Positions 1 to 64,000 of a DNA stretch of 64,000 nt are shown here, in pieces. Every line of letters begins with the position of its first letter. The stretch's first letter is position 1. The notes below the pieces were generated by a model. It did not search any database and had not been told where the DNA came from. It saw only the letters and a program-made list of their open reading frames with translations. Origin of the DNA: Scenedesmus sp. ARA3 (lineage: Eukaryota; Chlorophyta; Chlorophyceae; Sphaeropleales; Scenedesmaceae); NCBI GenBank assembly GCA_004335835.1, contig RWJK01001732.1:62001-126000 (forward strand), in the 5' to 3' direction. The position numbers were made by a program, and so were the translations under genes.

Positions 1-1
1 T

Positions 2-880
2 GCTGACGCCACTGCTACAGATAGCAGCAGCAGCAACAACAACAGCACCTATCAGTTTGTTGCTACGGGGCCGGGTGGTGTTGGATCTGGCCGTGTGTTT
101 CTGGCAGAGCATCTCATCTTTGCATCTGGTCCGCTTGATGTTCGTAAGCTGGGTGGTGACCTAGGCAGGCTGCTAGCAGCAGCACCAGAAACAGCATCTA
201 TTAGGCCGGTAGAAGTTGCTGTATATGATGCATTCTATACCCAGCGGTTTTGGGAGGGTTACATGGTGCATCGCTACTACAACATGCCTGTGCGCACAGA
301 TGCAAGCTGCCTGGTTTTCAGCGAGTTTCCAGGTCATGCGTACTTCCGAGTGGCCAATGCAACACGGCCAGTGTACAGCACAGACTTGCGCTGCATTGAG
401 TTCTGGAGGCAGCTGTACAACACGTCTGGCATGCCTGGGGTTCGAAGCTATATGCATTCCAGTCTGCAGCAGATGTTTCCGATGCAGTAGATCCCTGCCC
501 CATATTTTGATGCATTCATGGTGCATGAGGACGGATGGCATCTTGTGAACTACGGGGCATCGCAGCGCAACGTAACCATCGAGTCGATTTACGCTTGGGC
601 TGCGTCACCGCTAGGAAAGGGGCGTAATCTCTGCTTAGTCGGTGAGGCGTATTACGGCATCAGTCCCGGGTGGACTGCTGGCGCCTGGAGGACAGCAGCA
701 CGATGCGTCAAGCAACAGTTTGCAGGGGTGCTGTCTGGATCTGCGCGTGCTGCGGCTGAGTACATCAGCAGTGGATGCAACGGGCTGCAGGTGTTTTCAA
801 ATGAGGTTGTGCTGCCCAGGAACATGTCCATGCCTGGTTTAAACCCTGCCACTGGCAAGGTTCTGCCAGCAGACGAGTGA
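2..880 (+). CDS. Flavin amine oxidase-like protein, C-terminal part (5' incomplete, in-frame TAG)
   Basis: One frame is open from base 2 to TGA 878-880 except for a TAG at 488-490. After the stop it continues with IPAPYFDAFMVHEDGW, so the same protein resumes. The C-terminal motifs LCLVGEAYYG and, five residues on, GWTAGAW match the GE-x-Y ... GW-x-x-GA signature that closes the FAD site in amine and L-amino-acid oxidases. YSTDLR resembles the conserved S-x-TDLP segment. These enzymes oxidise amines with FAD and release ammonia and peroxide; the substrate here cannot be told. The Rossmann GxGxxG start lies outside the window. The TAG follows a CAG at a probable glutamine codon, so it could be a C-to-T nonsense change, a sequencing error or a decaying gene. 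Family call fairly secure, intactness unsure. Confidence 0.6.
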
Positions 881-2050
881 TGTGGTGATTGTGCTTGTTT
901 CTTTGTTGCATCTGCGCTCTGTTGCCTCTTTGAACATGTTTGCATCCATCTTTGATGCTGATGTTGGAGCGAAGGTGGGTTGCAGCTGCAGTACTCTGAC
1001 GGTTTGGACGATGATGAGTTGTTCTTCGATGTTTCCTCCCCCTATGAGCCTCTCGTTGGCTCCTGACTGGGGTTCCCACTCCTCGTTGAGTGGAGCATGT
1101 AATGTAATGTAATGTAATGTAGTACAACAGCAGCCGCTGGCATGAAGTTGGGTGTGAAGTGATTTGTGTTTTTTCATAGCTGGAGCTTCTGAACTGCGTG
1201 TTGAGGCTGTTGAGCCACGCCCTTGGCAGCATTGAGTTGGCTGCAGTAGAGGTGGCAGTTGGCAGCACTTTGCAGGCGTGCCGTGTGGTGCTGCTGTCGC
1301 TGCAGCTAATACATAGGCAGTGGCTGCAATGCTGATGGTGTTTCTAAATGAGGTGGTGCTGCCCAGGAATGTGTCCATGCCTGGCTTGAACCCTGCCACT
1401 GGCAAGGTACTGCCAGCAGACGAGTGATGTTGGAATTATGCCTCGTTTCCGATGTTGCATGCATTGCTGTTGCATGCAATGTTGTTGCAATGTTGTTAGT
1501 TTTGAGCTCTGTTGTTACTTTCATCATGTTTGCAGCCGTCTTGATGCTGGAGCCAAGATGGGTTGCAGTAGGACAATGACCGCTGGCCCTCATGCAGTTT
1601 TGATCAAGTTGGATGTGGGTTGTTGTTTTGTGTAGATTTGTAGTCGGAGGCTTCTGAACTGCGCTGTGTTGAGGCTTTTAACGCTGCTTGCTGCAGTGCA
1701 ATGCGGCTCATAAACAGTGAGGGAGCGGACGTCACACAGTGTTGCTTGCGGGTCTCATCGCACCTTGATTGTGGCACGAATGTTAGCAGGGGGACACTGA
1801 GCCATGCCATTAGCAGCATTGTGGTGGTTGCAAGTTGAGAGTTACATGTCCTACGCATCAGAATGCCTGGGAATGTCTTCATGCCAGCCTTGAACCCTGC
1901 CACTGGCAAGTGTTGCCGAACTATGAGTGATGGTGACTGCGAACATGCTTCCTTGCACTCTGTTCTCAGCCTATCATGCTCCACAGAACTCCTTGACATC
2001 ATGATAGTTCATAGTACACAAAGCCCACGGCTGCTGGGCGGCTGCACACT
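881..2050 (+). repeat. Two decayed tandem copies of the amine oxidase 3' end and 3' flank
   Basis: The last roughly 85 coding bases of the amine oxidase, ending in the GLNPATGKVLPADE-like tail and stop, recur at about 1295-1428 and 1815-1935. The 3' flank around 'gagctctgttg' and 'cttctgaactgcg' is repeated with them. The repeat unit is about 520-545 bases. The second copy retains the tail and stop; the third has drifted after GLNPATGK. They lie downstream of the gene, as expected for duplications of its 3' edge. No separate gene is seen here. Confidence 0.8.
995..1120 (+). mobile_element. Short dispersed element with TGTAA-repeat tail and AGTAC target duplication
   Basis: This 126-base block is present in copy 1 of the local tandem repeat but absent at the matching place in copy 2. 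It is flanked by AGTAC at 990-994 and 1121-1125. It contains an inverted repeat around CCACTC/GAGTGG and ends in four tandem TGTAA units. A related block lies on the minus strand near 46610-46690. It has no coding capacity. A SINE-like or LINE-3'-end-derived element is the best guess. Confidence 0.55.
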
Positions 2051-8559: not shown

Positions 8560-11029
8560 TGTCAGCACACAGCCAGCAGCTGTTCCTTCAGCGGCTGAAC
8601 AGCCACCCTGCCAGCCGCCAGCTGCAGCACACACACCACAGCTGTCAGGCCCAGGTACCAACAGCTGCAACATTGTGCAGCAAGCGCCGTGAGACTGTCC
8701 ACTTCAACAGCGATGCCTCTGTGATATGCATAGCGCAGCACGGCAGCATAGCCGCACAGCAGCACAGCCCCGCTGCCTTGCACCACACCCTGTGCAAACA
8801 CACTATCACCTGGTTGTCAGCCACAGCCCTAGTGAAGGTCTACCGCACAATGTCGTCCGGGTGCCCGCTGCTTTGTACGACCTGTGCAAACACGCTGTCA
8901 CAGCCAAGTGCGGCTGTGATGTTGCAGCGAGTAGTTCTCGCCGCTACTTACATGTGTAAAAGGAAAACTCTCCCTTTACAGCTGTTCGCCCCACCTACCT
9001 GGTTGTCTGCGACAGCCCTCGTGAAGGTCTGCCGCACAAAGTCGTCAGGGTGCCCGCTGCTTTGTACAACCTGTGCAAACACGCGGTCACAGCTTCTCAC
9101 CCCACCTGGTTGTCAGCCACAGCCCTTGTGAAGGTCTGCCGCACAAAGTCGTCTGGGTGCCCGCTGCTTTGTACAACGTGTGCACACACACTGTCACAGC
9201 CAAGTGCGGCTGTGATTTTTCGGCGAGTACTTCTCGCCTCAACTTAAATGTGTAAAAGAAAATTCTCCCTTTACAGCTTTTCGCCCCACCTGGTTGTCAG
9301 CCACAGCCCTTGTGAAGGTCTGCCGCACAAAGCGTTACACAGTAAATGTGACGACAAGAAAGACACCCTGTGACATATGCATGCGCCTGATTTCAGCGCA
9401 AATGTCTGCCACACACTGCTGCATTCACTGCATGTCACAGACAGCTGGAACAAATAACACTGTTTCCGGCCCACCTGGTTGTCAGCCACAGCCCTGGTGA
9501 AGGTCTGCCGCACAAAGTCGTCTGGGTGCCCTCCATCGTCGACGTGCCTGCACAGCGCTGCTGGCACCTGCATGCTCTTGTATGCTGCTGTGCGCTCCTT
9601 GAACTGCTGTAAGCCTCTCAGCAGCTCCTGCCTGCAAATGCATTGTTGACAGGCATTGAAGCAGGCAAGAAGCCTTTCTGTAAGAATACATACATGTGCT
9701 GTCTGCTGCTGTGCGCTCCTGAACTGCTGGAAGCCCTTCAGCAGCTCCTGCCTGCAACAGCATTGTTGACAGGCATTGAAGCAGGCAAGAAGCCATTCAG
9801 TAAGCATGAGTGCATGTGCTCTTGTATGCTGCATGCCCTTTGAACTGCTGGAAGCCCTTCAGCAGCTCCTGCCTGCAAATGCATTGTTGAAAGGAATGAG
9901 GCAGGCAGGCGACAGGCGATGCAGTAAGCATGAAAGCCCATGTTTAAAGACCAGCAGCAGCATGGGCAGCACACAGCACAGTCAATGTATGCACTCTGCT
10001 GGCAGCCTCAGCAGTAGCTGCTGCTGCTGCTGCCAGCAGCGCTGCAGAGCATAATTGACAGCAGGGCCGGTTGAGCCATTCCAATGCGGCTGCAGTGCCG
10101 GTGCAGCTGCTGTTTGCTCGTTTGAAGAGCGCAGGCGCAAACAACACCGTGTTGCTGCACATGCGCAGGCAGCTTGCAACAGTTTGAGTTTCCTTGCTAC
10201 TGGCTGTGCCCCTTGACTAGCACGATGCCGCGCTTTTGGCCGCTCTGCTGTGCTGCCTGCTAATTTTGCGGATGTCTGAGGAAGCATTTGGAGGCTGCAC
10301 CAGTATTTAATGCCTTGGCGTTGAAATGCATGTCAGTTGAGCATGCTAGCACATGCTCTGTGCATGCGGGACAGGGTGCAAGGGTAATTGACTGGTACAA
10401 AATCTGCTGTTGTGCTGCCCCAAACTACACGAGTGCATGTTGCGTGGGCTGCTAGATGGCCGCATGCTGCTGCTGTGCTGCTGTGGCGGCTGATTCCGCA
10501 GGCAGTATGCTGTGCATGCTGTAGTGCTTTGCTGTCAGCTGCACTCTTTCAATGAGCAGTTTTTGAGACCAGAAGGTTCACCATCACTGCCCCTGCATGC
10601 CAACTTGGAAACTCACAGCCTGGTCACAAGCTGATCTCCACAGGATTCAAGCTGTGCATGCTGCATGTGGTGCATTGCTGGCCAGAGCCCACGTCAGCTG
10701 CATCCCTGTCACCAGCAGTCTGTTCGACTCGATAGTGTGCAGTGTGCTGCACGTCAACCCGGTTTTAGGCTAAAACTCACAGCCTTGTCACGAGCAGCTC
10801 CTGCGAGGTAGCCTGGGTGAAGTCTCCGGCTATGGTCTCTATCTCATACAGCTGCAGCGGCCGCAGGAGATAGGGTAAGAGCAGGCAATGCACAGCCGGG
10901 CATTATTGCATGGCAAGTTCAGCAGCACAGATGGGTTCAGCAGGGGCAGTATTGCACCAGGCGCACCTGCCGTAGCAGGTCCTTAAGGGAATTCATCATC
11001 ATCTGCTTTTCACTTTCCTTGGAAGCCAT
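8147..11029 (-). CDS. MED10: Mediator of RNA polymerase II transcription subunit 10
   Basis: Four minus-strand exons join with matching phases into 129 aa: 11029-10967, 10851-10781, 9631-9475 and 8245-8147. The protein starts MASKESEKQMM, then LYEIETIAGDFTQ, GLQQFKERTAAY, VPAALCRHVDDGG, HPDDFVRQTFTRAVADNQ, LAAGRVAAIQALKDQLLA and ends FPEAAAVYK. This follows MED10 along its whole length: the VSDFQPSSQ-like segment, the VPLEVFEYIDQGRNP-like core, the NEQVKGK-like turn and a final FPE. The family is usually about 130-140 aa. MED10 is a middle-module Mediator subunit acting in the nucleus. Exon 2 uses donor GGCT|GTGAGT, the only choice that keeps phase and length. It is divergent from the kinase gene, with about 640 bases between the start codons. 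Confidence 0.92.
8330..8625 (-). repeat. Two upstream copies of the MED10 last-exon acceptor edge, with CTG tracts
   Basis: CTGCAG followed by codons for LAAGRV recurs at about 8382 down to 8330 and 8622 down to 8562, upstream of the real last exon at 8245. Both copies run into early TGA stops (LAVC, LAAVC). Between them, and before the real acceptor, lie long CTG runs in the sense strand, seen on the plus strand as CAG at 8282-8315, 8410-8459 and 8512-8557. Confidence 0.85.
8808..9340 (-). repeat. Four tandem copies of the MED10 exon 3 donor edge
   Basis: The codons for HPDDFVRQTFTRAVADNQ and the following GT donor recur at about 9335-9290, 9175-9105, 9070-9000 and 8880-8809, all downstream of the real exon edge at 9475. 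The copy nearest 8830 has TAG in place of CAG. Most are preceded by AAAGCAG, which looks like an acceptor. An 80-base spacer ending in a CTCCCTTTACAG-type sequence (plus strand) is shared by two units. Confidence 0.85.
9700..9890 (-). repeat. Two upstream copies of the MED10 exon 3 acceptor edge
   Basis: TTGCAG or TTTGCAG followed by codons for QELLKGFQQF recurs at about 9765-9700 and 9885-9840, upstream of the real exon start at 9631. The copies lose homology or reach a stop soon after. The period is about 120 bases. Confidence 0.85.
10610..10640 (-). repeat. Partial copy of the MED10 exon 2 donor edge
   Basis: The sense strand reads codons for QLVTRL followed by GTGAGT, matching the end of exon 2 at 10781. 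It lies downstream in intron 2 and only about 25 bases of exon are retained. Confidence 0.6.
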
Positions 11030-20495: not shown

Positions 20496-20566
<71 letters not shown>

Positions 20567-22387: not shown

Positions 22388-22423
<36 letters not shown>

Positions 22424-25400: not shown

Positions 25401-25794
25401 TAACGGCGCCGTCATCGCGTTCTTTTCCTACATCGGTGAGAGGGGTTGGAGCAACCTACGCCACCTGTTACATGTATGCTACTTTCACTTCAAATTGTGA
25501 GGTTTGCTTTGGAGCGCATATGTTGAGCGTCGTGTTCTTTTCCTACATCCGTGAGGCTGCACTTGGCTCAGTCACGTGTTTTTCATGTCACGGTGTTGGT
25601 TTGTTCTGTGCTCATAAATGGTGTGCGGCATCTTCAACGGCGCCGCCATCGTGTTCATTTCCTACATCGGTGAGCTGTTTGTGTGCAGCTCTTGGAGGTG
25701 TGCCACACTTGGTCTTGACTTTGATGGTCTGATCACGGAATTGAGCAAGACTGGCGGCCTGTGTGGCCTCCCGCACCACTCCACACCCTGCTTC

Positions 25795-25832
<38 letters not shown>

Positions 25833-25994
25833 ACCCCTTCAGGTTTCGACGCCGTGGCCACCTCTGCCGAAGAAGTGAAGAACCCCAAGCGTGACCTGCC
25901 CCTGGGCATTCTGGGCGCGCTGTGTGTGGTCACAATTTGCTACATCCTCATGTTCCTGGCCCTGGCCAGCATGAGCTCATCCATGGACCTAAAC

Positions 25995-43864: not shown

Positions 43865-43913
<49 letters not shown>

Positions 43914-49864: not shown

Positions 49865-49898
<34 letters not shown>

Positions 49899-49987
49899 GT
49901 GCTGCTGCTGTAGGGCCATGCTTGCCCTGGAGAATGAGATGCTGGCACTGCTGGATACGGAGGCATCGCAACAATTGACGCCGAATG

Positions 49988-50029
<42 letters not shown>

Positions 50030-50435
50030 AGGGCCATGCTTGCGCTTGAAAATGAGATGATGGCACTGCTTGATTACGGAGGCATCTCAACAAATGATGC
50101 CGAGTCAGCCATCAAGCGCGCCTCCAAGGGCGGCATGGTTGGAGCAAAGCAGCTGCGCGGCCTGGTGGCCACACTGGCAGGTCAGTGTTTGAAATATCGA
50201 AAGCACAAGGTTGAGAAATCTGGGCAACCAACACCACCCACAACTCCACAAGTTATGCGGCAGCAATTCAGGGTGGTGCACACTCATGTCAAGAGAGCAG
50301 GTGCTGTGATCCCAGGAGTGTGGCAGGTTAGAAACTGACCACAATGCTGCTGCTGCCGCCGGTGCTGCCATTGCTGCTGCAGGTGCGGACCGCTTGAAGC
50401 GCTGGGTCAACCTCATAGCTTGTCACCCCCACAGC

Positions 50436-50472
<37 letters not shown>

Positions 50473-52258
50473 CTGTCAAGCTTCTCTGTGCATGCTGGCG
50501 CTCACCACCTCGAGCGCTAGGTCAATGTGGTTGCCCGCCAGAACAATGCCACGCAGCGCAATTGACCCCTGAGCTTTTCATTTGCATACCATCTCAACAA
50601 CGCTGCTGCTGCTGCTTCTGCTGCTGCTGCTTTCGCAGGCGCGGACCGCCTCAAGCGCCAGGTCGGCCTGGTGGCCCGCCAGAACAACGCCACGCAGCGC
50701 AACGAGCCCTTGAAGCTGTCTTATAGCACTGCTGCACCTACTGCTGCTGCTGCTGCTGCTGCAGGTGCGGACCGGCTCAAGCGCCAGGTGGGCCTGGTGG
50801 CTCGCCAGAACAACGCCACGCAGCGCAACGGGCCCCTGGGCCCTCTGCTGGATGCTGTTGCTGCTGTGCGGGTGCCTGCGGCGCTGATGCGTGACATCAA
50901 TGCAGCCATCAACGAGGATGGGGAGCTGGCTGACAGCAGCAGCGAGCAGGTGAGGTGTTGTTCTGAATTTAGGTGCCTGAATGACAACTGAATCAGCAAC
51001 ACGTTTGGTGGGACATCAATGCAGCCATCAATGAGGATGACTAGCTGGCAGACAGCAGCAGTGAACAGGTGGGGACATTAACTGAATGTGGCACTGGTAC
51101 ATGGCAGCAAAGGCTTCAGCAGCTGCAGCGGCGGCAGCAGCAGCGGCAGCAGCAGCAGCAGCGGCATCAGCAGCAGCAGCAGTGGGTGCAGCAGCAGTTG
51201 TAGTGGATTCTGCAGCAGTGGTTGGCATTGGACATCAACGCAGCCGATGAAGATGGAGAGCTGTCTGACAGCAGCAGCGAACAGGTGGGACTTGGATTCT
51301 GCTGATAACACGGCAGGCAAGATCTCTGCAGTAACAGCTGGAAGCAGTGAATTTTGTTGCAGCCAGTGCTGATGGCGACATGGCATATTTCAGCCAGTTG
51401 CTGATGCAGTGTCTTGTCCTGAGCTATGGTCACCCTCCCTGCAGCGCATGCGGCAAACTCGTTTTTAAATTGTTTAAACATGCAAATGCTTACGTCACAA
51501 CAACTGTTATTTGCATCAGGTGCGCACAACGCGTGGCAGGGTGCGCGCCATCACCTCCCGCATCAACAACGTCCTAGCGAGGCCGCTTTCAAATGTAACG
51601 GCTGCTTGTAACACTAGTTAGTCCACTGTCCATGGTTTTGCCGCTGCAGGTGCGCACAACACGTGGCAGGGTGCGCGCCATCACCTCCCGCATCAACAAC
51701 ATCCTGAAAGGATACCCAGGGGAGGCTTCAGAGAAGAGCGGGCGGCTGTGCATTGCAGTGCCTGCAGGTGAGGACTCGGGCATTTCATTTTCCCCCGAAA
51801 GGGGCGGTTGCTCGTGAGTAATCTTTAGAGTATGGGCATCTTGAAAAGGGCGGGTATGTGCATATGAGGATTATGGCGAGGTTTCTGGACAGCAAAGGTG
51901 GGCTACCCAGGGAAAGATTCAGAGGAGAGTGGGCGGCTGTGCATTGCAGTGCCGGGAGGTAACAGTGTGGCCATAGGCAGGATTTACAGCGGAGGTTTTG
52001 AGTGTGGTTCAGATTTGAGAGCCGGGATAGCAGGCATGGGCTACCCTGGGGAAGCTTGAGACAAGAGCGGGCGGCTGCGCATCGCAGTGCCGGCAGGTGA
52101 GAGTGTGGGCATAGGCAGGATTTGCAGCGGAGGTTTTGAGTGTGGTTCAGATTTGAGAACCTGGACAGCAGGTATGGGATACCCTGGGGAGGCCTCGGAG
52201 GAGAGCGGGCGGCTGCGCATTGCACGGGCGGCTGCACATTGCAGTGCCGGCAGGTGAG

Positions 52259-52296
<38 letters not shown>

Positions 52297-52441
52297 AGGC
52301 AGCGCAGGCTGCTGACCCCATGTCTTCATCATCGTTATTACTGTGCCATGCGGCTGTGAGCGGCAGTTCAGAACGCGTTGCTGAAGGGCTGGCACTACAG
52401 GACCATATCAACTCTCTTTATGTCTGTATAATCGCCTTGCA

Positions 52442-52495
<54 letters not shown>

Positions 52496-53741
52496 GCTGC
52501 TGCCGCAGGCACGCGCATAAACAACGGCGTTATGCTGGGCAGCAGTGTGGGTGGCGGACTGACCTACATAGAGCCGGCGCAGGTGAGGCAAATGTTTGTT
52601 GCTGCTGCTGTTGCTGTTGCAGTTGTGGTCGCTGCTGCTGCTGCTACTGGCTGCGTAGCAGTTTGGGCGTGGTTTGGGCAGCAGCGTTGGGGGCGGGCTG
52701 ACCTTCATATGGCTGGCACAGGTGAGGCAGCCTGCTGCAACTGCTGCTGCTGCTGCTGCCGCTGCTGGCTGTGTAACGGTTTGAGCATGGTTTTGGGCAG
52801 CAGCGTTGGGTGCGGGCTGACCTTCATATGGCTGGAACAGGTGAGGCAGCCTGCTGCTATCGCAATAGCTGCTGCTGCTGCCGCTGCTGCTGCTGGATGC
52901 TTAGCTTCGGGGAACGGGCTGGGAAATCCGCTATTTGCTTCGCAAGGAAATCACTGCATTGCAGGCGGTGCTGCTGCTACCACTGGAGACGATGAAAAGA
53001 GTCGTGTTAATGCTGTGCACCGCCTGCACCGGGGCTGGTGCAGGTGGTGTCGCTGAACAGCGAGCTGATGGCGGCGATTGCTGAAGCAATGGCAGCAGAG
53101 GAGGCGGTGCTATGGGAGCTGCCGGGCAGCTGGTGTGATGTTGTTTAAGGCATTGCTCTGCTTTTGCTGCTGCTGCCGCAGATGGTGCTGCTCAACAAGA
53201 ACATGCTGCCTGTAACACAGGCAGAACAGTATGGTGTAGAAAGCCTTTAGTCACCTTAACATCACACATGCTTACTTACTTACAAGCACTGTGTACTTTG
53301 CTGCTGCAGGTGGTGTCCCTGAACAACGAGCTGATGGCTGCTCGTGCCGAGGCCATGGCTGCAGAGGAGGCGGTGCTATGGGAGCTGAGTGGCAGGCTGA
53401 TGGGCTGCTTGGAAGACGTGGAGACAGTGAGGCGTTTTTCTTGTCAAAATTGTTAGATTGTTAATGTGATAGTGTTACATTTGTGTCACATTGTGGTTAG
53501 GTGGCAGCAGAGGAGGCGGTGCTGTGGGAGCTCAGCGGTCCGCTCATAGGCTGCCTGGAAGATGTGGAGACGGTGAGGACGTGTTACAGCGCCACATTGT
53601 TATTGAGGCACAGGCACAGTTATAACATGGTGTCTGCTGGCCTCTATTTGGCACTGATATTGCTATGCAGCTGCCAGCTGCTAGCCACGCATGGTTCAGT
53701 GTTTGCTAGCAGGCTGTTTACGCCCATATACTCTGTTAAAA

Positions 53742-53786
<45 letters not shown>

Positions 53787-53787
53787 A

Positions 53788-53821
<34 letters not shown>

Positions 53822-56800
53822 CTGCAGGCGTTCAGCATTGTGGGCTGGCTGGATGTGCTGTCAGCAAAGGTGGGGAAGCTACAACAACAGCATTATGTGG
53901 CTCGTCCCATTCCACTCCAGTTACAGATATTTTGAGTGCAGTATGGTGCTTGTTTTTGTTTTTTCTTGGGCCGTGCATGTACGTGGTTGTCAGCGACTTG
54001 GTTGTGTAGTTGCACAGCAGCGGCCATCTCTAGCAGCAACAAGCACTGATGTTAGTGATTGCGACAGCTGCAGATGAGCCCGCACTTGTGTTGTGTGTAG
54101 GATATGCATAACACTGTGTTGCTGATCGCTGTGCAGGTGCGCTTTGGCATGTGGATGGGTTCTGTCATGCCTCAGTTCACGCCTTGGGACGAAGTTTCGC
54201 ACACACATCTTTGCCTTCATTGTGGGTTGCAGTGGCTGTCCCAGAACCTGCTGTAAACACCTGCGTTGAATGGTATATCGCAGGTGCGCTTCGGCATGTG
54301 GATGGGTGCTGTCATGCCCCAGTTCACTCCCTGGGACGAAGTCTTCCACACACATCTGATACTGCTTTAGACGTCCACTGACTGTCTCAAAACCTTCATT
54401 TACATCATATACATTGCAAATACATTGCAGGTCCGCTTGGCCTTGTGGATGGGCGCTGTCATGCCCCAGTTCACGCCCTGGGACGAAGTCTTCCACACCC
54501 GCAGCGGCGCAGCACTCCGCAAACAGCAGCAGCAGCAGCAGCAAGGCAGCAATGCGGTGGACTGGGATGCCTTTGCATCTGCTGGTGCTGCTGCTGGCGC
54601 TGCGGTGCACCTGCGGCGGCTGAGTCATCCGCTGCTGCTGGCTGACTACTTGGAGGAGCGGCAGCAGCTGGAGCGGCAGGCACGGATGGCTGGCTATGCG
54701 GCTGTCGGCAGCAGCAGCAGTGAGGGCGGCGGCAGCAGCAGCAGTGGCAAGAAGATCAGCAGCAGGATGCTGGGCACTCGCAAGGAGGTGCTGTACAAGT
54801 GAGTGAATCTGATGGCAGCTATTGTGTGCACCGTGCACTGTGGGGGTTGCATCAGGTTTCATGTATGGGCAGTTTGGCTGCAAGCATGTGCTGGCGGATT
54901 AGGAGCGGCAGGCGAGGATGGATGGCTATGCGGCTGCCAGCAGCAGCAGCAGCAGCAGCAGTGAGGGTGGCAGCAGCAGCAGCAGCAGTGGCATGAAGAT
55001 CAGCAGCAGCATGCTGGGCACTCGCAAGGAGGTGCTGTACAAGTAGGTGATGTTGTTGCTGTTCATATTGCTCACCCTGCAGTATTGAGCTGGTCAAGCC
55101 TGCTTGCTTATCTTGCTGCTGATGCAGGCGCTGGCTGGTACAATGCATGCGTGATACATCAGCATAGTGAGCAATCAGTAGCAGCATCTACCGCAATCTG
55201 GGCTCGCTGTAGCGGTGAATTTCCGCAACCCTCTGTGACCGATCACCTGCAACTCCTGTTTGTCCCTCACTGCTGCAGGCAGATGGGCCTCGACTTTGAC
55301 AGCAGCAGCAGCAGCGGCAAGCAGCAGGCAGCCAACCCGCAGGAGGCCCTGGCAGCGCTGAAGCCCCCGCGGCCGATTGAGCTCGTGGCACAGCCTGAGA
55401 CAAGCGTTGTCGTCATCACAGGTGCGTGCGTCATGTGCCCTGCCTCACTGTTCAGCCCACAGCATGTTTGTTTGAGGCATAGCCGATAGCGCTGAAACTG
55501 CCGCGGCCTATTGAGCTCGTGGCGAAGCCTGAGACAAGCGTCGTTGTCATCACAGGTGTGTTACAGATCCGCTTCTTTGACATGCATAGGTGTAGCAGTT
55601 GTTTGTGTATGTGGGCCGCCGTATGTACCTGTGGAGGCGCTGGCAGCGCTGAAGCGTCCGAGGCCTATTGAGAACGTTGCGCAGCCCAAAATAAGCGTGG
55701 TGGTCATCACAGGTGTGAGCAGCAGTAGTGCGTAGTAAATGAGCCTGTGGTGTGAGAAGGTGTCACATGCCATCAGGCATGAAAGCGTCACATGAAGGTG
55801 TCACATGCCATCAGGCATGAAAGCGTCACATGAAGGTGTCACATGTCATCAGGCATGAAAGCGTTGGGCCTTGCGGCCTGCATGGCCAGCGCCGTGCTGC
55901 TGCTGTCCGCACAGGCCCCTGCAGTTGCATGTGCCTCGGTTTCCCCTTCCAACTACTGGCATCAAAAGCCTGTCTGACGCACAAAACCAAAGCATTCAAA
56001 CTGCATGTATCACGTAATCATACCTTGCAGGTCCCAACATCAGCGGCAAAACCGCAGCCATGAAAGCCTTCGCCTGGCGGCATGCATGGCCAAGGCCAGC
56101 CTGCTGCTGCCTGCACAGGCCCTCTGTGTGCTTCATTGCACTCACGCACACAAACCTCACCTCTCAAACGCTTTTACTATGCATGCAGGCCCTAACACGG
56201 GTGGCAAGACAGCAGCCATGAAAGCGTTTGGCCTGGCTGCCTGCATGGCCAAGGCCGGCCTGCTGCTGCCTGCACAGGCCCCTGCGCGCCTGCCCTGTTT
56301 CAGCTGCGTGCTTGCTGACATTGGCGACGAGCAGAGCCTGACGGCCAATTTATCTACTTTCAGCGGGCACATCAAGAGGTGAGGCGCAAGCATTGAGGTT
56401 TTGCAGTGCGCAGGTTGTTGCATTGCGCAGGGGCAGGCCCCTGCGCGCCTGCCGAGCTTCAGCTGCGTGCTGGCTGACATTGGCGATGAACAGAGCCTCA
56501 CCGCAAACTTGTCGACATTCAGCGGGCACATCAAGAGGTGAGGCGCAAGCATTGAGGTTTTGCAGTGCGCAGGTTGTTGCATTGCGCAGGGGCAGGCCCC
56601 TGCGCGCCTGCCGAGCTTCAGCTGCGTGCTGGCTGACATTGGCGATGAGCAGAGCCTCACCGCAAACTTGTCGACATTCAGCGGGCACATCAAGAGGTGA
56701 GCCGGCAGCTGGGTCTCCACTAGGGTTTTGTGGTCTCCGAGTAGTCAGGGATGTGACGAGGAGGGCTGTTTTGGGCTGGCTGACATTGGCTTCAGCGTGA

Positions 56801-56932
56801 TTGCCAAGCTGTCAATGTTCAGCGGCCACGTCAAGCAATGAGGCTGTAGGTATCACCTTCACCTGCTGTGGGAGTACACGCTGCCCGCTTTCTTGCTGCT
56901 TTTAACGGGCCTGCAACTCAATGGTCGCCAAC

Positions 56933-56973
<41 letters not shown>

Positions 56974-59900
56974 AGAATCTCCGCGCTGCGTGCTGAGGCT
57001 GACGGCCGCTCGCTGCTGCTGCTTGATGAGCTGGGCACAGGCACCGACCCTGTGGAGGGTGCTGCACTGGGACAGGCGCTGCTGCAGCAGCTGATCAAAG
57101 GTGAGCAGGCAGTTTCTGTGATGTTCTCGTTCATTGGATGTGTCATTGCTTGCTGCTGCTGGATGAGTTGAGCTACAGGCACTGAGCCTGTGGAGGGCGC
57201 TGCACTGGGTCAGGCACTGCTGCAGCAGCTGATCAAGGGTGAGGCTTTGTTGAATTGTTCAAATTGAAATTGTCAGCATCATGCTATGCTTTATTTTTGT
57301 TGACCCACTCCCGTCCGCGCTTTGACCTGGCCCTTCATGTGTGCAGGCGGCATCGGCAACGGCGCACGCACCATTGCCACCACGCACCGCAGCACCATAT
57401 GCGGGCCTAACTCGCATATCTGTTTTGGCTTATCATTGTCTTCGCTTGCCTCTTTGCTGTGTGATTGCAGGCGGCATCGGCAATGGCGCGCTCACCATTG
57501 CCACCACACACCACAGCATCATGACGCAGCTCAAGTTTGAAGATCCGCGAGCTGAGAACGCCAGCGTGGAGTTTGACGAGGAGGCACTGGCACCAACATA
57601 CAAGCTGCTCTGGGGCGTGCCAGGTGCGGCAATGGTTTAGTAAGTCTGGTGCTGGGTTAAGATTCAGCACGTCCTGAGTCTGCCAGCGTTGTAGTTTGAT
57701 GAAGAAGCGCTGGCGCCAACCTACAAGCTGCTTTGGGGTGTGCCAGGTGCGTTAAGAACAACGCAAGCATGAGAGTGGTTGAGCGTTTAGCATGGCACTG
57801 CACACGCAAGCGTGCAGTTTGGTAAGGACGCGCTGGCGAGAACCTACAAGCTGCTTTGGGCATGCCAGGTGGGTGGACGGTTCAGCTGGTATGGCGTTTT
57901 GTCTGGTTTTAGCCTGGCCTGGAATATCAGTGTGGAATTCGATGAGGAAGCGCTGGCACCAACCTACAAGCTGCTCTGGGGAGTACCGGGTGGGTGAAGG
58001 GTTAAGCAGGTCTGGTGCTAGCCATGGGTGGATGTTCAGCCGGTCTCGCGCTGTGTGTGGTTTCAGCCTGGCCTTCGAACGCCAGCATGGAGTGTGACGT
58101 CTGTCGCTAGGTTGGCGTTGACCATAGTCCTGAGAATGCCATCTTGGAGTCTAACAAGGAGGCACCGGCTGGCTTATATATGTACAAGCTGCTCCAAGTC
58201 ATGCCAAGTACGTGAGTATGGGCGTGCGCTCTAACACCAAAGCCTGTACATAAGTTGCATGTTCCCATCGTTTGCCTACTTGCAGGCCGCAGCAATGCAC
58301 TCAGCATCACAATTAATATGTCGCTATTGGAGCTAATGGCAAAGGTTTGAGCGCTGACACCGCCCTGCTGCGCTGCCCTCGCCATTGCCAATTTGAATTT
58401 CCTCAGGTCGCAGCAATGCCCTCAACATCGCTTCACGCCTGGGCCTGGACCCCACTATCGTGGCGGCTGCGCGGCAGCGGCTAGCTGCTGTGCAGCGAAT
58501 GTGCTGCTGCCTAAAATCATTACTGCCTGTTTCACAGGTCACGAAGTACAAACCTCCAATGTTACCCATGCCGTCATGACGCGATTCTGAATCGAAATGT
58601 CAAGGGCTGAGCAATCACCCGCCCCTCCTGCTGTGCTTCTCTTGCCGGTGCCGATTTGACTCGCCGCAGGCCGCAGCAATGCGCTCAACATCGCGTCACG
58701 CCTGGGGCTGGATCCCACCATCGTGGCGGCTGCAAGGCAGCGGCTGGCTGCTGGTGTTGCTGCTGCCAACAGCGCGATTGAAAAATTGGAAGGCGTGCAG
58801 GAGACGCTGCGGCAGGCAGATGCGGCTGCATTCGCTGTAGAGGCAGACCTGCAGCAGACAAAGGTGTGCTGAGGTGTCTGGGATGCCGTTTTTTTTTTGC
58901 ATGACCCAGCTCTCAGCGCTCTGACATCAACCTGCATTACTGCTCTGCACTGCTTCATTGCTGGGCTTCTGCATTGCTGCAGCTTCACTGCTGCATCGCT
59001 GCCCTCACTAAGTCGGCTGCAAGGTTTGCAGCAGTATGTTTGTCACATTGTAGCAGGAGGATTGTCATCAAAGAATGATAATCACCTTTTTCCTGCTGGC
59101 TGCTAGTGATGCCGTCAAAGTCATCTTCATGTACCCAAACTCCTCTGCTATGCTGCTGCTCTATGCTGCTGCTCTGCTATGCTGCGCTATGCTGCTGCTC
59201 TTGCAGACGCGCCTTGAAGGAGTGAAGCAGCTAGTAATCTCCACGCAGCAAGGAGTAGCCATGAAGCGAGCAGCAGCAATCCGCGAGGTCCAGTCAGCTG
59301 CCAGAGCCCTGCTGAAAGCCCTAAAGCTCGAACGCAAGGCACGCTTTAAAGGCAACACCAGCAGCAAGATCGGACGCCAGCTGGACCTCGCCATGGGCGA
59401 CGACATGTTACAAACCGGTCAAAGTAACAGTCAAAGTAACACATCAGTGACAAGTGCGGCGATCAGCCTGGATGCGGCGATGGAGTCGTTCAGGGCTTTG
59501 GAAGCCAGCAGTGCGGGCGGCAGCAGTGCATTTGCATATGATGCGTTGCTGCAGCAGCGGCGGCAGCAGCAGCAGCAGCAGTGGCAGCAGCAGGAGGAGT
59601 GGGTGCAGGACTGGGCCCGGCTGCTGGAGAAGGCTCGCAGCACACTACGGGAGAGCCTGGCAAGCAGCAGCAGCAGCAGTGTTGGTGTTGCTGGCGGAAG
59701 TTTGGAGGAGGATTATGAGGCGGACGTGGAAGCTGAGCTGCAGGTAAGCCTGTTTGAGTGTTTTTCACCTATGTTCAGCATTTACTGTTCCATTCTGACC
59801 TGCTTATTTGGAAGCGCCAGCAGCATTCGCAGGCCAGTGATTGTTGATGGCCCGGTTGCTTGCTTGAGAAGGCTCGCGGCACGCTGCGGGAGAGCCTGGC

Positions 59901-62900
59901 AAGCAGCAGCAGCAGCAGTGTTGGTGTTGTTGGCAGCAGTGTGGAAGAGGGTTATGAGGCGGAGGTGGAAGCTGAGCTGCAGGTGAGCATGCTTTGTATA
60001 TGTTACTATACTTCACTTTACTCTACTTCACAAATTTGGGATGTCATGTAACATCTTTATGGCATGTTGCTGGTTAGAGCCTTAGCTATGGCACGCCTGC
60101 GACTGGCGAGAAGTGCACAGCTGCTGACATCATGTGAACCCGCCCTTGATGGAGCCGCCATTGTCCATTTGTCCACAGTGCGCCTGGATCGAACGGCGCA
60201 GAGGCATGCCGCGCAGCAGGCGCTTGTGCTATCATTGTTGTCGCCCATTGCTGCCAGTCTTGTCACCCGTCGCCGTATTGCTACCAGTGTTGTCACCCGC
60301 CGCGCTTTTCTGCCTTGCAGGCGCTGGCAGCCAAGGCGGCACAGAGGGACGCTGCACAGCAGGCAGAAATCGCCGCAGCGCAGCAGCTGATTGAGTCTCA
60401 GTTCAAGGCCATCACAGCAGCAGCAGCAGCGACGGATGCAACAAGCCAGGATGCTCTTGATGCTGCGATGGACGCTGTACAGAAGCGCAAGCTGTCAACA
60501 GATGAGGCGGTGGGTGGCGTGGCTTTGGAGTTGTCGCATGCAGCAGCTGGTGTCTCGGGAACTGTTTGATGCTGGCGTGTCTCTGGTAGAAGAAGCACTG
60601 GAGCCATCGTCAACACGCATTTGACACTTTATTCCATCTGCATTGTATGCCACAGGTGTACCAGCAGCTGATTGCTGCTGGCGCGTGCCTGGTCGGTGCC
60701 GGTTATCGTAAACGCTCATTTGTGACTGTTATGTTTTATCCGTATTGTGTGCTGCAGGTGTCTCATGATGGGTCTGCTGATGGCGTGTCTCTGTAGAAGA
60801 GGCGCTGGATCCATTCACACCCCCCAATGCAGGCCCTTGGTCTTCTGTCTGCTTGGCGTGCTGCAGGTGCCGCAGAGCTGTGCTGCTGGCGTGTCTCTTG
60901 TAGGACCACCCTGTCGTTGTTGCTTTCTCAAAGCCGTTGTGCTGCACCCGCATTGCGTGTCCCAGGAGCTGTCTGCTGCTGGCGTGGCTCTTGGTGGTGC
61001 CCACTATGGCAAACTACTACTTACGGCTGTTATGCTGCACCCGCATTGTGTGCCGCAGGTGTCCCAGGAGCTGTTTGCTGCTGGCGTGTCGCTGGTAGAA
61101 GCGGCACATATCACATTGGCATATACCAACTATATACCAAGCCCCTAATATCATACTCGCTTTGTGGCTGCAGGTGTCTCAGGAGCTGTTTGCTGCCGGC
61201 GTGTCGCTGGTAGAAGAGGCGCTGGAGGCAGACCAGCAGCTGGCAGCGCTGATGGCGGCCAACGGCGCTGCACAGCAGGCGCAGGCAGCAGCACAGGCAC
61301 AGGAGGCAGCCAGGTGAGTGGACAATACTTCGCTTCAAAACTGCTGCGTTTGAAAGAGCGGCCAGCGCGCTGGGCACAATCCGCTTCTCGAGCACAGGAT
61401 TCAGCTAGTGCACGCAGCATTTTTTCGTTACTTTGAGCCGTGAATGTGACAGTGTGAGGCGGCAGTGGAAGAGGCACTGGAGGCAGACCAGCAGCTGGCA
61501 GCGCTGATGGCGGCCAACGGCGCTGCACAGCAGGCACACGCTGCTGCACAGGCAGAGGCGGCAGCGAGGTGTGTTTTGATTATTTTATGTATGCGATCTT
61601 TGATATTGCATAGCTGGCAGCGCTGATGGCGGCTGGTGGCGTGGCGCAGCAGGCACATGCAGCAGCACAGGCAGAGGAGGCAGCAGGTGAGTGGACCATA
61701 CTCCGCTTCAAACCTGCTGCGGCCGCGCGGAGCACACAACGCTTGTCGGGCAGAGGAGCCAGCTAGTGCACGAAGCTAACGTTTTCCAACATGACGTTCC
61801 ATTTGTGTTTTTTCGTTACTTTGAGCCGTAAACCTGACAGTTTGAGGGGGCAGTGGAAGAGGCACTGGAGGCAGACCAATTTGTGAGTCAATAGCGATAG
61901 GCAGACCAGCAGCTGGCAGCGCTCATGGCTGCTGGCGGTGCTGCACAGCAGTCACAGGCAGCTGCACAGGCAGAGGAGGCAGCTAGGTGAGTTTTTGTTG
62001 ATTTTTTTGTAGATGTGAATTTTTGAATTCTTTATAAAGATGTGAAGTTTGTGAGTCAATAGCAATAGGCAGACCAGCAGCTGGCAGCGCTGATGGCGGC
62101 TGGTGGCGCGGCAGCACACGCAGAGGAGGCGCATGTGGCAGCACACGCACAGGAGGCGGCTAGGTGAGGTTCATTAAGGTATTACGAGTGTGATCTTTGT
62201 GTTTTCATAGCAATAGGCCGATCATCAGCTAGCTGCAGTGATGGCAGTAGGAGACGCGGCACAGCAGGCACACGCGGCAGCACAAGCAGAGGCGGCAGCC
62301 ATGTGAGTTCATCGCTTCGAAGCACTGTGGGAGCGCATAGCAGAAAGCCCCGGTCCAGCAGGGCACCTGGTGCAGCTAGCAGCACTGTTTGCGGCTGGCG
62401 GTGCTGCACAACAGGCGCCGGCTGCTGCCTCAGGCAAAGGAGGTGAGTACAGTGAGTACCTTTGTCAGGTGGCATCACCACACACGTCTTACCCTGAGCC
62501 AGCAAACTTTTCGTTGTCGTTACTTTGTATGTTGCGGCCTAGGGTAACAGCCGGTTCGAGCTGCTGCATGGACCGGAGCCTGCGGCTGTGCTTCTGATGC
62601 ATGCTGACTTAGTACTGCTGCTGCTGTTGTTCTTGCTGTCGTGTTTTATGTGTACATGCAGGCAGCAAGCTGAGCAGGCAATGCTAATGGCAGCAATGGA
62701 GTCAGAGCTAGAGCAATGGGACATAGACGCATTGCTGCAGCCAACACAGCAGCAGCAACAGGAAGAGGAGGCAGCTGCTGCTGCAGCAGCGGCAGCTGCA
62801 AAGGCAGATGCGGAAGCAGCAGCGACAGCAGCGGCAGCAGAAGCTGTGCAACAGCAGCAGCAGCAGTTGGAGATGGTGCGTGCATTTGAGGATCTCATGC

Positions 62901-63270
62901 TAGGCTTGGATGATGAATGGGGCTCATCAGTAGCAGGCAGCAACAGCAGCAGCAGCAGCAGCAGTAGCAGTAGCAGTTCAAGTAGTAACAGCAATAGCAG
63001 CAGCAGCAGCAGCAGTAGCAGCAGCAGCAGCAAGAGCAGCAGTCAGACGACACCACAGCTCAGTCAATTACACAAGCCAGCAGTCAAACAGCAGCCGCAG
63101 CAGCAGCAGCAACACCAGCAACAACAGCAGGCATACGATTCAGCCAGTGTGCCTGTGGCAGCTGCAAACACGCCTGCTTCTGGCCTGCTAGATGATTTGA
63201 TGGGCGATGTAGCAGCCTTTGAGGCAGGTCTAAGCCTGAAGAAGCAACCAAAGCAGCAAAAACAGCAGAC

Positions 63271-63310
<40 letters not shown>

Positions 63311-63356
63311 CGCACGACGCCAGGCTCAACCGCTGCAGCACCTCCAGCAGCAACAA

Positions 63357-63390
<34 letters not shown>

Positions 63391-63458
63391 CCCATCTAGT
63401 GACCTGCTGGATGAACTGATGGACGGCATTGCAGCCTTGGAAGGTGACGCACAGCAGA

Positions 63459-63497
<39 letters not shown>

Positions 63498-63526
63498 CAA
63501 AGACAAGCCAGGCTTCAGGCAAGAAG
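48561..63526 (+). CDS. MUTS2: MutS2 family ATPase, probably plastid-targeted (3' end not reached)
   Basis: Seventeen exons join in phase to 1338 codons: 48561-48985, 50032-50180, 50765-50949, 51650-51767, 52509-52582, 53310-53426, 53828-53869, 54431-54798, 55279-55421, 56189-56378, 56976-57100, 57471-57623, 58670-58863, 59207-59743, 60321-60509, 61174-61313 and 62662-63526. A Ser/Arg-rich N-terminus of about 70 residues looks like a plastid transit peptide. Then come [14 protein letters not shown] (MutS2 start), GWLDVLSAK and MPQF (core/lever), Walker A GPNTGGKT (about 541-548), [18 protein letters not shown], Walker [14 protein letters not shown] and TIATTHH. Bacterial MutS2 acts on recombination intermediates and stalled ribosomes; plant forms are organellar. 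Already far longer than the usual 780-900 aa because of Gln/Ala/Ser tracts in exons 8, 14 and 17. No Smr domain is visible yet; exon 17 ends AAG|GTGAGC, so more exons should follow. Confidence 0.92.
49075..49200 (+). repeat. Downstream copies of the MutS2 exon 1 donor edge
   Basis: 49085-49132 repeats codons for [15 protein letters not shown] followed by GTGGGTCTTGTGG, matching the exon 1 end at 48985 and its intron start. A shorter piece (GCCGTGCCTGTGGCAGCGCA) follows at about 49157. Confidence 0.8.
49791..49985 (+). repeat. Two upstream copies of the MutS2 exon 2 acceptor edge
   Basis: GGCCATGCTTGCCCTGGA plus codons for a [23 protein letters not shown] segment recurs at 49792 and 49913; the functional exon starts at 50032. 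CTG runs precede each acceptor. Confidence 0.9.
50380..50735 (+). repeat. Upstream copies of the MutS2 exon 3 acceptor edge
   Basis: Acceptor plus codons for [21 protein letters not shown], whole or partial, recurs at about 50385, 50500 and 50640 before the real exon at 50765. The copy at 50640 is nearly identical to the functional one for about 65 bases. Confidence 0.88.
51010..51290 (+). repeat. Downstream copies of the MutS2 exon 3 donor edge
   Basis: Segments for [19 protein letters not shown] and a GTGGG donor recur at about 51013-51068 (with a TAG) and 51230-51284. The real edge is at 50949. Confidence 0.85.
51518..52256 (+). repeat. Exon 4 edge copies of MutS2 on both sides
   Basis: One acceptor-edge copy ([17 protein letters not shown]) lies at 51520-51575, before the real exon 51650-51767. 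Three donor-edge copies (YPGE...[11 protein letters not shown] then GT) lie after it at about 51903-51960, 52038-52096 and 52168-52254. The flanking spacers are also repeated with a period of about 130 bases. Confidence 0.88.
52655..53580 (+). repeat. Exon 5 donor-edge and exon 6 edge copies of MutS2
   Basis: 52672-52720 and 52795-52840 repeat the exon 5 end (GSSVG-GLTFIW.. AQ then GTGAGG). 53038-53125 repeats the exon 6 start ([12 protein letters not shown]), and 53181-53210 is a fragment of it. 53503-53573 repeats the exon 6 end ([20 protein letters not shown]) with a GTGAGG donor. Confidence 0.85.
54137..55050 (+). repeat. Exon 8 edge copies of MutS2
   Basis: Two acceptor-edge copies ([20 protein letters not shown]) lie at about 54137 and 54284, before the real exon at 54431. 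One donor-edge copy ([11 protein letters not shown] to [10 protein letters not shown] then GTAGGT) lies at about 54902-55043, after the real edge at 54798. The upstream copies read RFG where the functional exon has RLA. Confidence 0.88.
55485..56130 (+). repeat. Exon 9 donor-edge and exon 10 acceptor-edge copies of MutS2, plus a 40-base repeat
   Basis: 55488-55555 and 55636-55711 repeat the exon 9 end ([23 protein letters not shown]). A 40-base unit with GTCACATGCCATCAGGCATG occurs about three times at 55765-55862. Degraded Walker A-edge copies follow at about 55850-55920 and 56032-56120 ([13 protein letters not shown] in place of [13 protein letters not shown]). Confidence 0.85.
56400..56840 (+). 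repeat. Near-identical donor-edge copies of MutS2 exon 10
   Basis: 56379-56538 and 56539-56698 are tandem units of about 160 bases that differ at almost no positions. Each repeats [19 protein letters not shown] to TFSGHIKR plus a GTGAG donor. A third, decayed unit ([17 protein letters not shown]) ends near 56840. The real edge is at 56378. Confidence 0.92.
57170..58510 (+). repeat. Edge copies around MutS2 exons 11, 12 and 13
   Basis: 57175-57240 repeats the exon 11 end ([19 protein letters not shown]). 57348-57400 repeats the exon 12 start ([16 protein letters not shown]). 57690-57747, 57815-57870 and 57930-57992 repeat the exon 12 end ([18 protein letters not shown]), with a weaker piece near 58140-58205. 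58286-58345 and 58407-58495 repeat the exon 13 start ([22 protein letters not shown]). In every case only the innermost copy fits the frame. Confidence 0.88.
59860..59985 (+). repeat. Downstream copy of the MutS2 exon 14 donor edge
   Basis: 59862-59982 repeats codons for [20 protein letters not shown] to EAELQ with a GTGAGC donor. The real edge is at 59743, with GTAAGC. Confidence 0.9.
60540..61105 (+). repeat. Six upstream copies of the MutS2 exon 16 acceptor edge
   Basis: GCAGGTGTC-type acceptors with codons for [15 protein letters not shown] recur at about 60547, 60656, 60758, 60866, 60959 and 61058 before the real exon at 61174. The period is about 100-110 bases. Copies decay with distance; the closest is almost perfect. 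Confidence 0.9.
61455..62440 (+). repeat. Six downstream copies of the MutS2 exon 16 donor edge
   Basis: Segments for [20 protein letters not shown] and AAQAEEAAR followed by GTGAG-type donors recur at about 61486-61570, 61612-61688, 61875-61988, 62071-62165, 62216-62304 and 62370-62442. The real edge is at 61313. Unit lengths vary from about 75 to 200 bases. Confidence 0.88.
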
Positions 63527-64000
63527 GTGAGCCTTCTTGGATTAGTTGCAACACTGTAGGGCGGTTATACGAAGAATGTGAGGTGCGCCCTCGAGACATA
63601 AGCACTACACGTGACAAACACAGTATGGCAGCTGTACCCTGGTCCTTTGTGCACCAGCCTCATGACAATGGCCGCAGATCATCACATAGTGTGGGCAATG
63701 GGTATGATGATGATTATGATGCCGGTACAGTGTTGTACAACGTGAAGCTGCTGACATTGCAGTGCGCCTCACCTGCGCTGGCGCACGCACTGCCTGACTT
63801 TGATGCAGGGCAAGCGAGGCATCAGCTTCAAATTCTTCTGATGAGGCCAGGCATGAGCAAAGGCCCAAAAACCTGCAGCTGATGAGGCTAGCCATGAGCA
63901 AAGGACCTGCAGTTGCTGTCTTAGCCTGCAGTGCATATCCTTCCCAGTGTATAGGATGCTGAGGTGCACTGCGTGTCGCTGAAACAACAGCTGCTGTAGC
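63527..64000. other. Start of MutS2 intron 17 or further exons
   Basis: Begins with GTGAGC after exon 17. Continuing the frame without splicing would end at a TAG after LGLVATL (63557-63559), giving a possible alternative C-terminus of 1348 aa. Later open frames (63583-63882) have no recognisable domain. AGGCCAGGCATGAGCAAAGG and AGGCTAGCCATGAGCAAAGG near 63844 and 63886 are short tandem copies. Confidence 0.45.

Follow-up and report, generated by a model that had tools for sequence, protein, structure and literature searches.

Introns of a green alga carry stacked copies of their own exon edges and probably lengthen by tandem duplication across splice junctions

Why should an intron contain, one behind another, copies of the ends of the very exons that it separates, and why should each copy lie on the side of its exon where that end is found? 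The question is raised by a 64-kb stretch of nuclear DNA from the green alga Scenedesmus sp. ARA3 (contig RWJK01001732.1, positions 62,001 to 126,000 of the forward strand), hereafter the window, in which a cationic amino-acid transporter gene, a MutS2 gene and a MED10 exon are accompanied by such copies. Judged by its proteins, the alga is Tetradesmus obliquus or a very close relative: its MutS2 agrees with T. obliquus OEZ86_010265 at 99.1% of 1033 aligned residues, compared with 97.5% (1030 residues) between the two T. obliquus MutS2 proteins, which bear OEZ85 and OEZ86 locus tags, and the transporter is 95.4% identical to T. obliquus OEZ85_000131 (562 residues). The explanation that we consider probable is that introns lengthen largely by repeated tandem duplication of segments spanning a splice junction, that the innermost edge is the one spliced, and that exons and copies then exchange sequence. 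Searches of the whole genome covered 87.3 Mb in 1567 contigs.

Gene models were obtained with a purpose-written protein-to-genome spliced aligner, and each modelled exon was searched against its own flanking introns, or against the flanks at gene ends (E ≤ 1e-3 for window genes). The transporter model comprises 12 exons in one uninterrupted frame, with all 11 introns of the GT-AG type; the MutS2 model joins 19 exons and 3462 coding nucleotides (nt) in a continuous frame, again with GT-AG introns. Aligning the window to itself revealed 167 forward repeat pairs separated by less than 5 kb. The two genes hold 78 edge copies, 36 of 5' edges upstream and 42 of 3' edges downstream of the respective exon, and none is wrong-sided, that is, a 5'-edge copy downstream or a 3'-edge copy upstream of its exon (Table 1). 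The stacks and their consistent side, described in the original prediction along with more than 70 edge copies, are therefore real, and two genes suffice to exceed that count. At least one copy is present in 9 of 11 transporter introns and 15 of 18 MutS2 introns. Further matches in these genes (22) touch neither edge; several resemble CTG-tract matches or truncated copies. The MED10 exon, represented by its Pfam core, is preceded by two copies of its 5' part and followed by four of its 3' part. Choosing the innermost copy at each junction restores the frame in the transporter and in MutS2, as had been proposed; the 1338 codons claimed for MutS2 do not correspond to the model that the T. obliquus orthologue supports (about 1154 codons). 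An open, coding-like frame with a diverged internal repeat (62876-63457) is spliced out in the MutS2 model and may be a real extra coding part and may explain the larger count.

The same arrangement is found in many genes. Outside the window, 20 stretches were fetched, covering 17 CCT and class-I tRNA-synthetase genes, a non-random sample of conserved families, and splice sites were placed by a position matrix trained on the window. One CCT row (C85, another contig) was left out of the gene chains, and 40 of 46 synthetase rows were used, the others spanning several stops (three), lying on other contigs (two) or having an E value of 5.4 (one). At least one intron bounded on both sides was obtained from 14 of the 17 genes (C1184, C732 and C1176 gave none), and the resulting 56 introns, together with 29 from the window, form a set of 85. 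This set contains 147 edge copies (83 of 3' edges and 64 of 5' edges) and 20 interior matches, with no wrong-sided copy; the 56 introns from outside the window contribute 70 copies in 26 introns. An HSP70 gene, picked since its profile matches already hinted at copies, carries nine in six of its seven introns, all on the expected side, with the splice dinucleotide intact in seven of the eight that reach the junction. Copies on the wrong side, which according to the original prediction would have refuted it, were absent from the introns of all 15 other genes scanned. When the same exons were searched at E ≤ 1e-4 against reverse-complemented introns a single match was found, and against reversed introns none.

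Genome-wide Pfam profile searches gave a similar picture, for example in CCT genes, where partial matches repeat the exon start before the exon and the exon end after it. A crude sorting of off-chain profile matches by nearest end placed 15 as downstream/3', eight as upstream/5' and two as upstream/3'; we do not rely on this count, since the last pair consists of one almost whole-exon match and one neighbouring exon, and among the eight one overlaps no chain exon and some others are neighbouring exons. Overall, copies are present in 12 of 17 genes with testable introns, HSP70 included. They are unevenly distributed: one CCT gene (on C837) has copies in none of its eight introns, others in 4/4 or 5/5, and none of 5000 shuffles produced a spread as wide as that observed over 16 genes. 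Kinesin motor genes, unlike CCT and HSP70 genes, show mostly compact exon spacing and no clear stacks, judged by eye on the listed part of 163 matches. An aldehyde dehydrogenase search with only 13 matches listed does not enter the counts.

The side rule has a simple geometric cause. Tandem duplication at an acceptor repeats intron end plus exon start ahead of the rest of the exon, and at a donor it repeats exon end plus intron start behind it; as long as a single full exon is left, 5'-edge copies must lie upstream and 3'-edge copies downstream. The rule thus identifies local tandem duplication across single junctions and is by itself no evidence of selection, so that sidedness, part of the original argument for purifying selection, holds as a pattern and fails as proof. 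In all 20 introns with copies of both kinds the 3'-edge block precedes the 5'-edge block, indicating that both junctions act independently. Spacing between units has a median of 135 nt (quartiles 119-159, 5th-95th percentiles 101-260, n = 147), and the exon and intron parts of a unit have median lengths of 57 and 75 nt. The intron part of the innermost unit has a 5th percentile of 53 nt on the donor side and 50 nt on the acceptor side, with a minimum of 30 nt; a lower limit on the acceptor side would be expected if an inner acceptor cannot do without a branch point and pyrimidine tract of its own. CTGCTG occurs within the last 20 nt of 34 of the 85 introns (window and sampled genome), and the CTG triplet repeat may serve as the pyrimidine tract at acceptors. 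One exon, MutS2 exon 10, was also searched genome-wide and gave five matches, all at its own locus; a dispersed or homeologous source for this exon was rejected on this result (one candidate region was scored).

Sidedness of this kind could also arise if the introns were introners, mobile elements that duplicate a piece of the exon as they insert. By reasoning, insertion with a long target-site duplication would give the same sides and would explain copies with unrelated flanks. The introner target-site duplications described are 3-9 bp (PMC9860276), and target-site duplication would not be expected to give copies that, as here, begin at the splice junction and bring an AG or GT of their own. 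No intron family is evident among the 85 introns either. At least half of the sequence consists of CTG/CAG triplets in 87 of 134 cross-intron matches, and most of the other 47 are CAG/CTG-like by eye, the exceptions including edges common to related CCT genes. Introner insertion was rejected because the matches among these 85 introns are mainly CTG/CAG tracts, and we regard it as very improbable. Assembly stutter or mis-joined haplotypes seem equally improbable. One array, that of transporter exon 7, does contain a 50-N gap (26052-26101), which sits in a CTG tract. Yet the copies are diverged from their exons (median identity 89.7%, with 10 of 147 at 97% or above), carry different flanks and recur across most of the genes sampled, and such a copy is also present in a T. 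obliquus protein model that comes from a different assembly.

That model belongs to the T. obliquus locus OEZ85_011287, for which two database products (P0005 and P0009) differ by 35 residues of repeated exon-start sequence. This suggests that edge copies exist in T. obliquus itself, where splicing, or at least annotation, may at times go to an outer acceptor. At the transporter locus the innermost choice yields the orthologous protein: the model offers 11 junctions for comparison, and at those covered neither T. obliquus OEZ85_000131 nor any of three EukProt proteins (with transcript-style names, some partial) has an insertion. The copies are not complete exons, since AG directly precedes only one of 83 3'-edge copies and GT directly follows only one of 64 5'-edge copies; we rejected on these counts the possibility that they are complete alternative, mutually exclusive or duplicated exons.

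The splice sites that the copies do carry are mostly preserved. Among the 119 of 147 copies whose match extends exactly to the junction, to which the splice-dinucleotide and codon-position counts are confined, the dinucleotide is intact in 110 (GT in 62 of 64, AG in 48 of 55), the opposite of a preferential loss of decoy splice sites. On the donor side the first bases are largely kept, with about half mismatched at intron bases 6-12. Such preservation is what one would look for if direct selection kept the copies for a role in the RNA, such as that of spare or competing splice sites by which splicing is regulated or stabilised, and the two OEZ85_011287 products, with an outer acceptor that may be used, could be read in the same way. 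We nevertheless find direct selection improbable: the CCT gene on C837, with a job similar to that of copy-bearing genes, has no copies, stops and non-synonymous changes accumulate in the copies, and the copies are only parts of exons.

The stacks are closely tied to intron length. Copies are found in 2 of 26 introns shorter than 350 nt, 9 of 16 between 350 and 500 nt, 21 of 25 between 500 and 800 nt and all 18 of at least 800 nt, and the mean length is 756 nt with copies versus 327 nt without. A linear fit gives a length of 355 nt plus 130 nt per copy (r2 = 0.61), the step agreeing with the unit spacing. At 130 nt per copy, units would make up about half (0.51) of the bases in copy-bearing introns. 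The spacing, this step and the block order together bear out the proposal that introns grow by local tandem duplication across junctions. Copy-free introns in the sample have a median of 300 nt and a minimum of 132 nt.

These two lengths matter for the question of whether duplication is directed at junctions. The alternative is a plain neutral history, in which tandem duplications of about 130 nt occur everywhere, those that spare the protein survive and the copies decay, so that the side rule and the junction excess are by-products of geometry and selection. The side rule requires nothing further. Self-comparison of the 85 introns (one strand) gave 89 non-overlapping forward repeat pairs, 85 of which touch an edge copy or a junction; of the four that do not, one sits in the open coding-like frame in the MutS2 intron, possibly an unrecognised exon. 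If units of the observed lengths are placed uniformly, 44-55% of events are expected to be intron-only in introns of 300 nt, the copy-free median, far from what is seen, and 5-10% if the founding introns measured 132 nt, close to the observed 4 of 89. A preference of duplication for junctions is thus likely, not proved, and the better detectability of old exon-bearing copies pushes in the same direction.

The pattern of substitutions fits a neutral history less well. Exon-copy mismatches amount to 129/2484 (5.2%), 109/2474 (4.4%) and 483/2464 (19.6%) at the first, second and third codon positions, a third-position ratio of 4.08 (bootstrap 3.46-4.84 over 62 arrays), far above the 1.64-1.68 obtained by simulating a free copy beside an exon that accepts synonymous changes only. 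HSP70 gives 6/117, 4/116 and 19/115. These counts are bounded by the BLAST matches; an earlier unit-wide alignment, with ratios of 2.47 (interval 2.04-3.04) for exon-copy and 1.72 for copy-copy pairs, was dropped because it mixed unaligned exon sequence beyond the copies into the counts. Between copies the third-position ratio is 2.56 (interval 1.99-3.39), and changes confined to a single copy fall 78, 71 and 131 times on the three positions. We read the copies as now free to drift, with an older ancestry as coding sequence. Exon parts are also poor in insertions and deletions beside the introns (0.31 versus 1.9 per 100 nt).

Ordered decay with distance is weak. Mean divergence is 0.100 for the nearest copy (n = 70), 0.131 for the sixth (n = 3) and 0.091 for the seventh (n = 1), and of the two ends of an array the outermost copy shows the greater divergence in 17 cases, the innermost in 18 and neither in one; a strong trend was rejected on these values. 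The copies described in the original prediction as decaying are indeed diverged, with little order in their decay, and its idea that they merely decay while selection spares only the innermost one is at odds with the preserved GT and AG, the small effect of distance and the third-position bias.

Exon parts and adjoining intron flanks were then compared by gapped alignment, which superseded an ungapped version. Homology of the flank to the true flank was found in 62 of 138 copies, as predicted by duplication spanning the junction; the flanks of 88 of the 138 are homologous to at least one unit of the array. Simple ageing implies that exon part and flank age together, and no such coupling is visible. 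Over 118 exon-copy pairs, third-position divergence is 0.167, 0.203 and 0.204 for homologous, partly homologous and non-homologous flanks, and the rank correlation between flank and third-position divergence is 0.20 for exon-copy pairs (n = 34, p = 0.25) and 0.06 for copy-copy pairs (n = 25, p = 0.78). The decoupling is seen in both directions. Between MutS2 exon 10 and its first copy the 55-nt flank is identical and 13 of 104 exon sites differ, 12 of them at third positions; conversely, in 7 of 67 exon-copy pairs without flank homology the exon parts (at least 45 nt) are diverged by no more than 5%. Exchange of exon blocks, limited on the exon side to versions that preserve the protein, would account for both.

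We therefore favour the following course of events, in which the later steps are argued from the patterns above. A segment straddling a splice junction, mostly 100-160 nt long, would be duplicated locally in tandem, and repeatedly so; duplications spanning the acceptor would leave 5'-edge copies upstream, those spanning the donor 3'-edge copies downstream, and both could proceed independently in one intron. The spliceosome would join the innermost acceptor and donor, the sole ones attached to a whole exon, leaving the protein unchanged, a choice that presumably requires recognition across the exon. Afterwards the copies and the true edge would keep exchanging sequence by gene conversion or unequal recombination, acceptable in the exon only if the protein is kept. 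Under such exchange the copies would stay alike in their exon parts and splice sites, and the neighbouring pieces of intron could drift or differ.

Several observations weigh against this course of events. That the innermost edges are spliced is read from the continuity of the protein, and exchange between copy and exon from sequence patterns in one genome. In five of 16 genes the testable introns are free of copies. The copies do drift, with 159 of 280 single-copy changes being non-synonymous, and in-frame stops (8 in 2931 codons) are near the neutral expectation of 0.33% at 5% divergence. In 76 of 138 copies the flank is not significantly homologous to the true one, something that plain duplication predicts only if flanks have since been lost or replaced. 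Near-identical flanks occur in four exon-copy pairs. MutS2 exon 10 alone among them forms a clean mosaic; in two pairs the exon parts are identical, in keeping with plain recent duplication, and in the last there are four exon differences (1, 2 and 1 by codon position). Finally, recombination with other alleles could produce the third-position excess and would look the same in one genome. The stops and frameshifts in the copies and the two pairs with identical exon parts speak for the plain neutral history, and the third-position ratio, the uncorrelated divergences and the scarcity of insertions and deletions in exon parts speak against it; on balance we judge it unlikely, though more credible than the other alternatives. 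Junction-spanning duplication followed by exchange remains the reading that we prefer. Its more far-reaching version, in which duplication is aimed at junctions, the edges form a pool that trades sequence, introns store spliceable and protein-compatible spare edges, and the size of the pool sets intron length, is offered only tentatively.

The coordinates of the window features are given in Table 1. A first gene, partly in the window (1-911), has a relative at C194 with 77% DNA identity, and its 3' part is repeated locally downstream (1262-1460), in the same sense as edge copies elsewhere. Two long related open frames on the forward strand (34423-36045 and 42619-44037), rich in Gln and Ser, each contain an internal repeat of about 100 nt and have in common the motif SWGA(D/V)(T/S)GS(A/V)GPLVLEELCYQQQ; judging by these features, they are probably tandem paralogues.

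Table 1. Modelled genes, exons and edge-copy arrays in the window.
Feature	Position	Strand	Remarks
Cationic amino-acid transporter gene	19694-30212	+	12 exons; spliced alignment with T. obliquus OEZ85_000131
Transporter exons 1-6	19694-19855, 20390-20481, 21559-21771, 22496-22567, 23296-23416, 24926-25031	+	
Transporter exons 7-12	26300-26545, 26716-26900, 27474-27609, 28170-28284, 29394-29524, 30106-30212	+	
Transporter exon 3, 5' edge	20846-21455	+	4 copies
Transporter exon 3, 3' part	21834-22248	+	3 copies (2 reach edge)
Transporter exon 5, 5' edge	22758-23265	+	5 copies and 2 truncated
Transporter exon 5, 3' edge	23479-24309	+	6 copies, period ~149
Transporter exon 6, 5' edge	24404-24840	+	4 copies
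Transporter exon 6, 3' edge	25126-25669	+	5 copies
Transporter exon 7, 5' edge	25843-26239	+	2 copies, 50-N assembly gap between (26052-26101)
Transporter exon 8, 3' edge	27007-27151	+	1 copy
Transporter exon 9, 5' edge	27248-27322	+	1 copy; 3'-edge copy at 27686-27740
Transporter exon 10, 5' edge	27923-28105	+	2 copies
Transporter exon 11, 5' edge	29046-29334	+	3 copies
Transporter exon 11, 3' edge	29598-29984	+	3 copies
MutS2 gene	48561-63838	+	19 exons; spliced alignment with OEZ86_010265 and N-terminus of Scenedesmus sp. NREL 46B-D3 protein
MutS2 exon 1, 3' edge	49073-49127	+	copy
MutS2 exon 2, 5' edge	49792-49984	+	2 copies
MutS2 exon 3, 5' edge	50641-50712	+	copy; 3'-edge copies at 51012-51068, 51231-51284
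MutS2 exon 4, 5' edge	51520-51575	+	copy; exon part 96% identical; intron upstream of its AG without detectable homology
MutS2 exon 4, 3' part	51901-52253	+	4 copies (3 reach edge)
MutS2 exon 6 with copies	53044-53571	+	exon 53310-53426; one 5'-edge copy before, one 3'-edge copy after
MutS2 exon 8, 5' edge	54137-54351	+	2 copies; 3'-edge copy at 54902-55042
MutS2 exon 9, 3' edge	55488-55712	+	2 copies
MutS2 exon 10, 3' edge	56434-56835	+	3 copies
MutS2 exon 12, 3' part	57674-58169	+	5 copies (3 reach edge)
MutS2 exon 16, 5' edge	60550-61105	+	5 copies and 1 truncated
MutS2 exon 16, 3' edge	61465-62301	+	5 copies and 1 short internal piece
MED10 exon core	9463-9630	-	Pfam PF09748 match
MED10 exon, 5' part	9700-9897	-	2 copies (upstream on gene strand)
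MED10 exon, 3' part	8807-9332	-	4 copies (downstream on gene strand)

How do these stacks relate to known systems? Intronic minisatellites are likewise arrays of similar units that vary in number; the units in the alga differ in holding coding sequence and a splice site, in being ordered on both sides of exons and in occurring in many genes. AGGT tandem genomic duplication (the Rogers model) concerns an exonic segment and the creation of an intron, whereas the innermost units here hold both intron and exon and the model for the alga is one of intron lengthening. That introns can arise by tandem duplication is established, with a duplicated intron-exon structure in one of the cases (PMC3443670 and PMC4974935). 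The system of PMC3443670 is alike in that spare splice sites arise by local tandem duplication within a gene whose protein is preserved; its duplicated piece is exonic and makes a new intron, whereas in the alga a junction-straddling piece lengthens an existing intron, many times. In the potato RdRp gene the duplicated segment holds an intron end, the 3' splice site and an exon start, so that splicing signals travel along, but that event made a new intron and inserted exon sequence rather than stacks that stay intronic (PMC4974935). Two features of the potato type recur here: an exon part with adjoining intron and splice site (dinucleotide in 110 of 119 copies; flank homologous in 62 of 138 and not demonstrable in 76), and head-to-tail copies beside their source (spacing 101-260 nt; the MutS2 exon at its own locus only). 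The 24-bp AGGT tandem segments of fission yeast, as cited within PMC4974935, resemble the stacks in that one intron spans several tandem duplicates, and differ in having a short exonic unit and in being found in two genes. Among the listed titles and abstract openings of open-licence papers we found no description of stacked intronic exon-edge copies and no account of multi-copy, two-sided stacks as a main route of intron lengthening, which does not prove that none is published; the main text of the S. obliquus AS-6-11 paper (PMC7590803) contains neither 'intron' nor 'tandem'.

With up to seven similar decoy edges beside one exon, the question is how the spliceosome picks the innermost, and that choice would point to exon-wide recognition in a unicellular alga. 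Gene models of such genomes may swallow copies as false exon extensions, as one T. obliquus model possibly has already. For T. obliquus UTEX393, Table 1 of PMC5966456 gives a mean intron length of 462 bp, and for four other green algae 230-302 bp, with no cause stated in the relevant parts of that paper. The copy-free median of 300 nt in our sample is near the mean intron lengths of these related algae, and edge-copy stacks would be a main reason for the long introns of T. obliquus. Intron growth is usually ascribed to transposons or to unknown sequence. In this alga about 61% of the variance in intron length goes with the number of a single countable unit, at about 130 nt per copy, so that intron growth can be measured one copy at a time, dated from the divergence of flanks and exon parts, and put to the test between strains.

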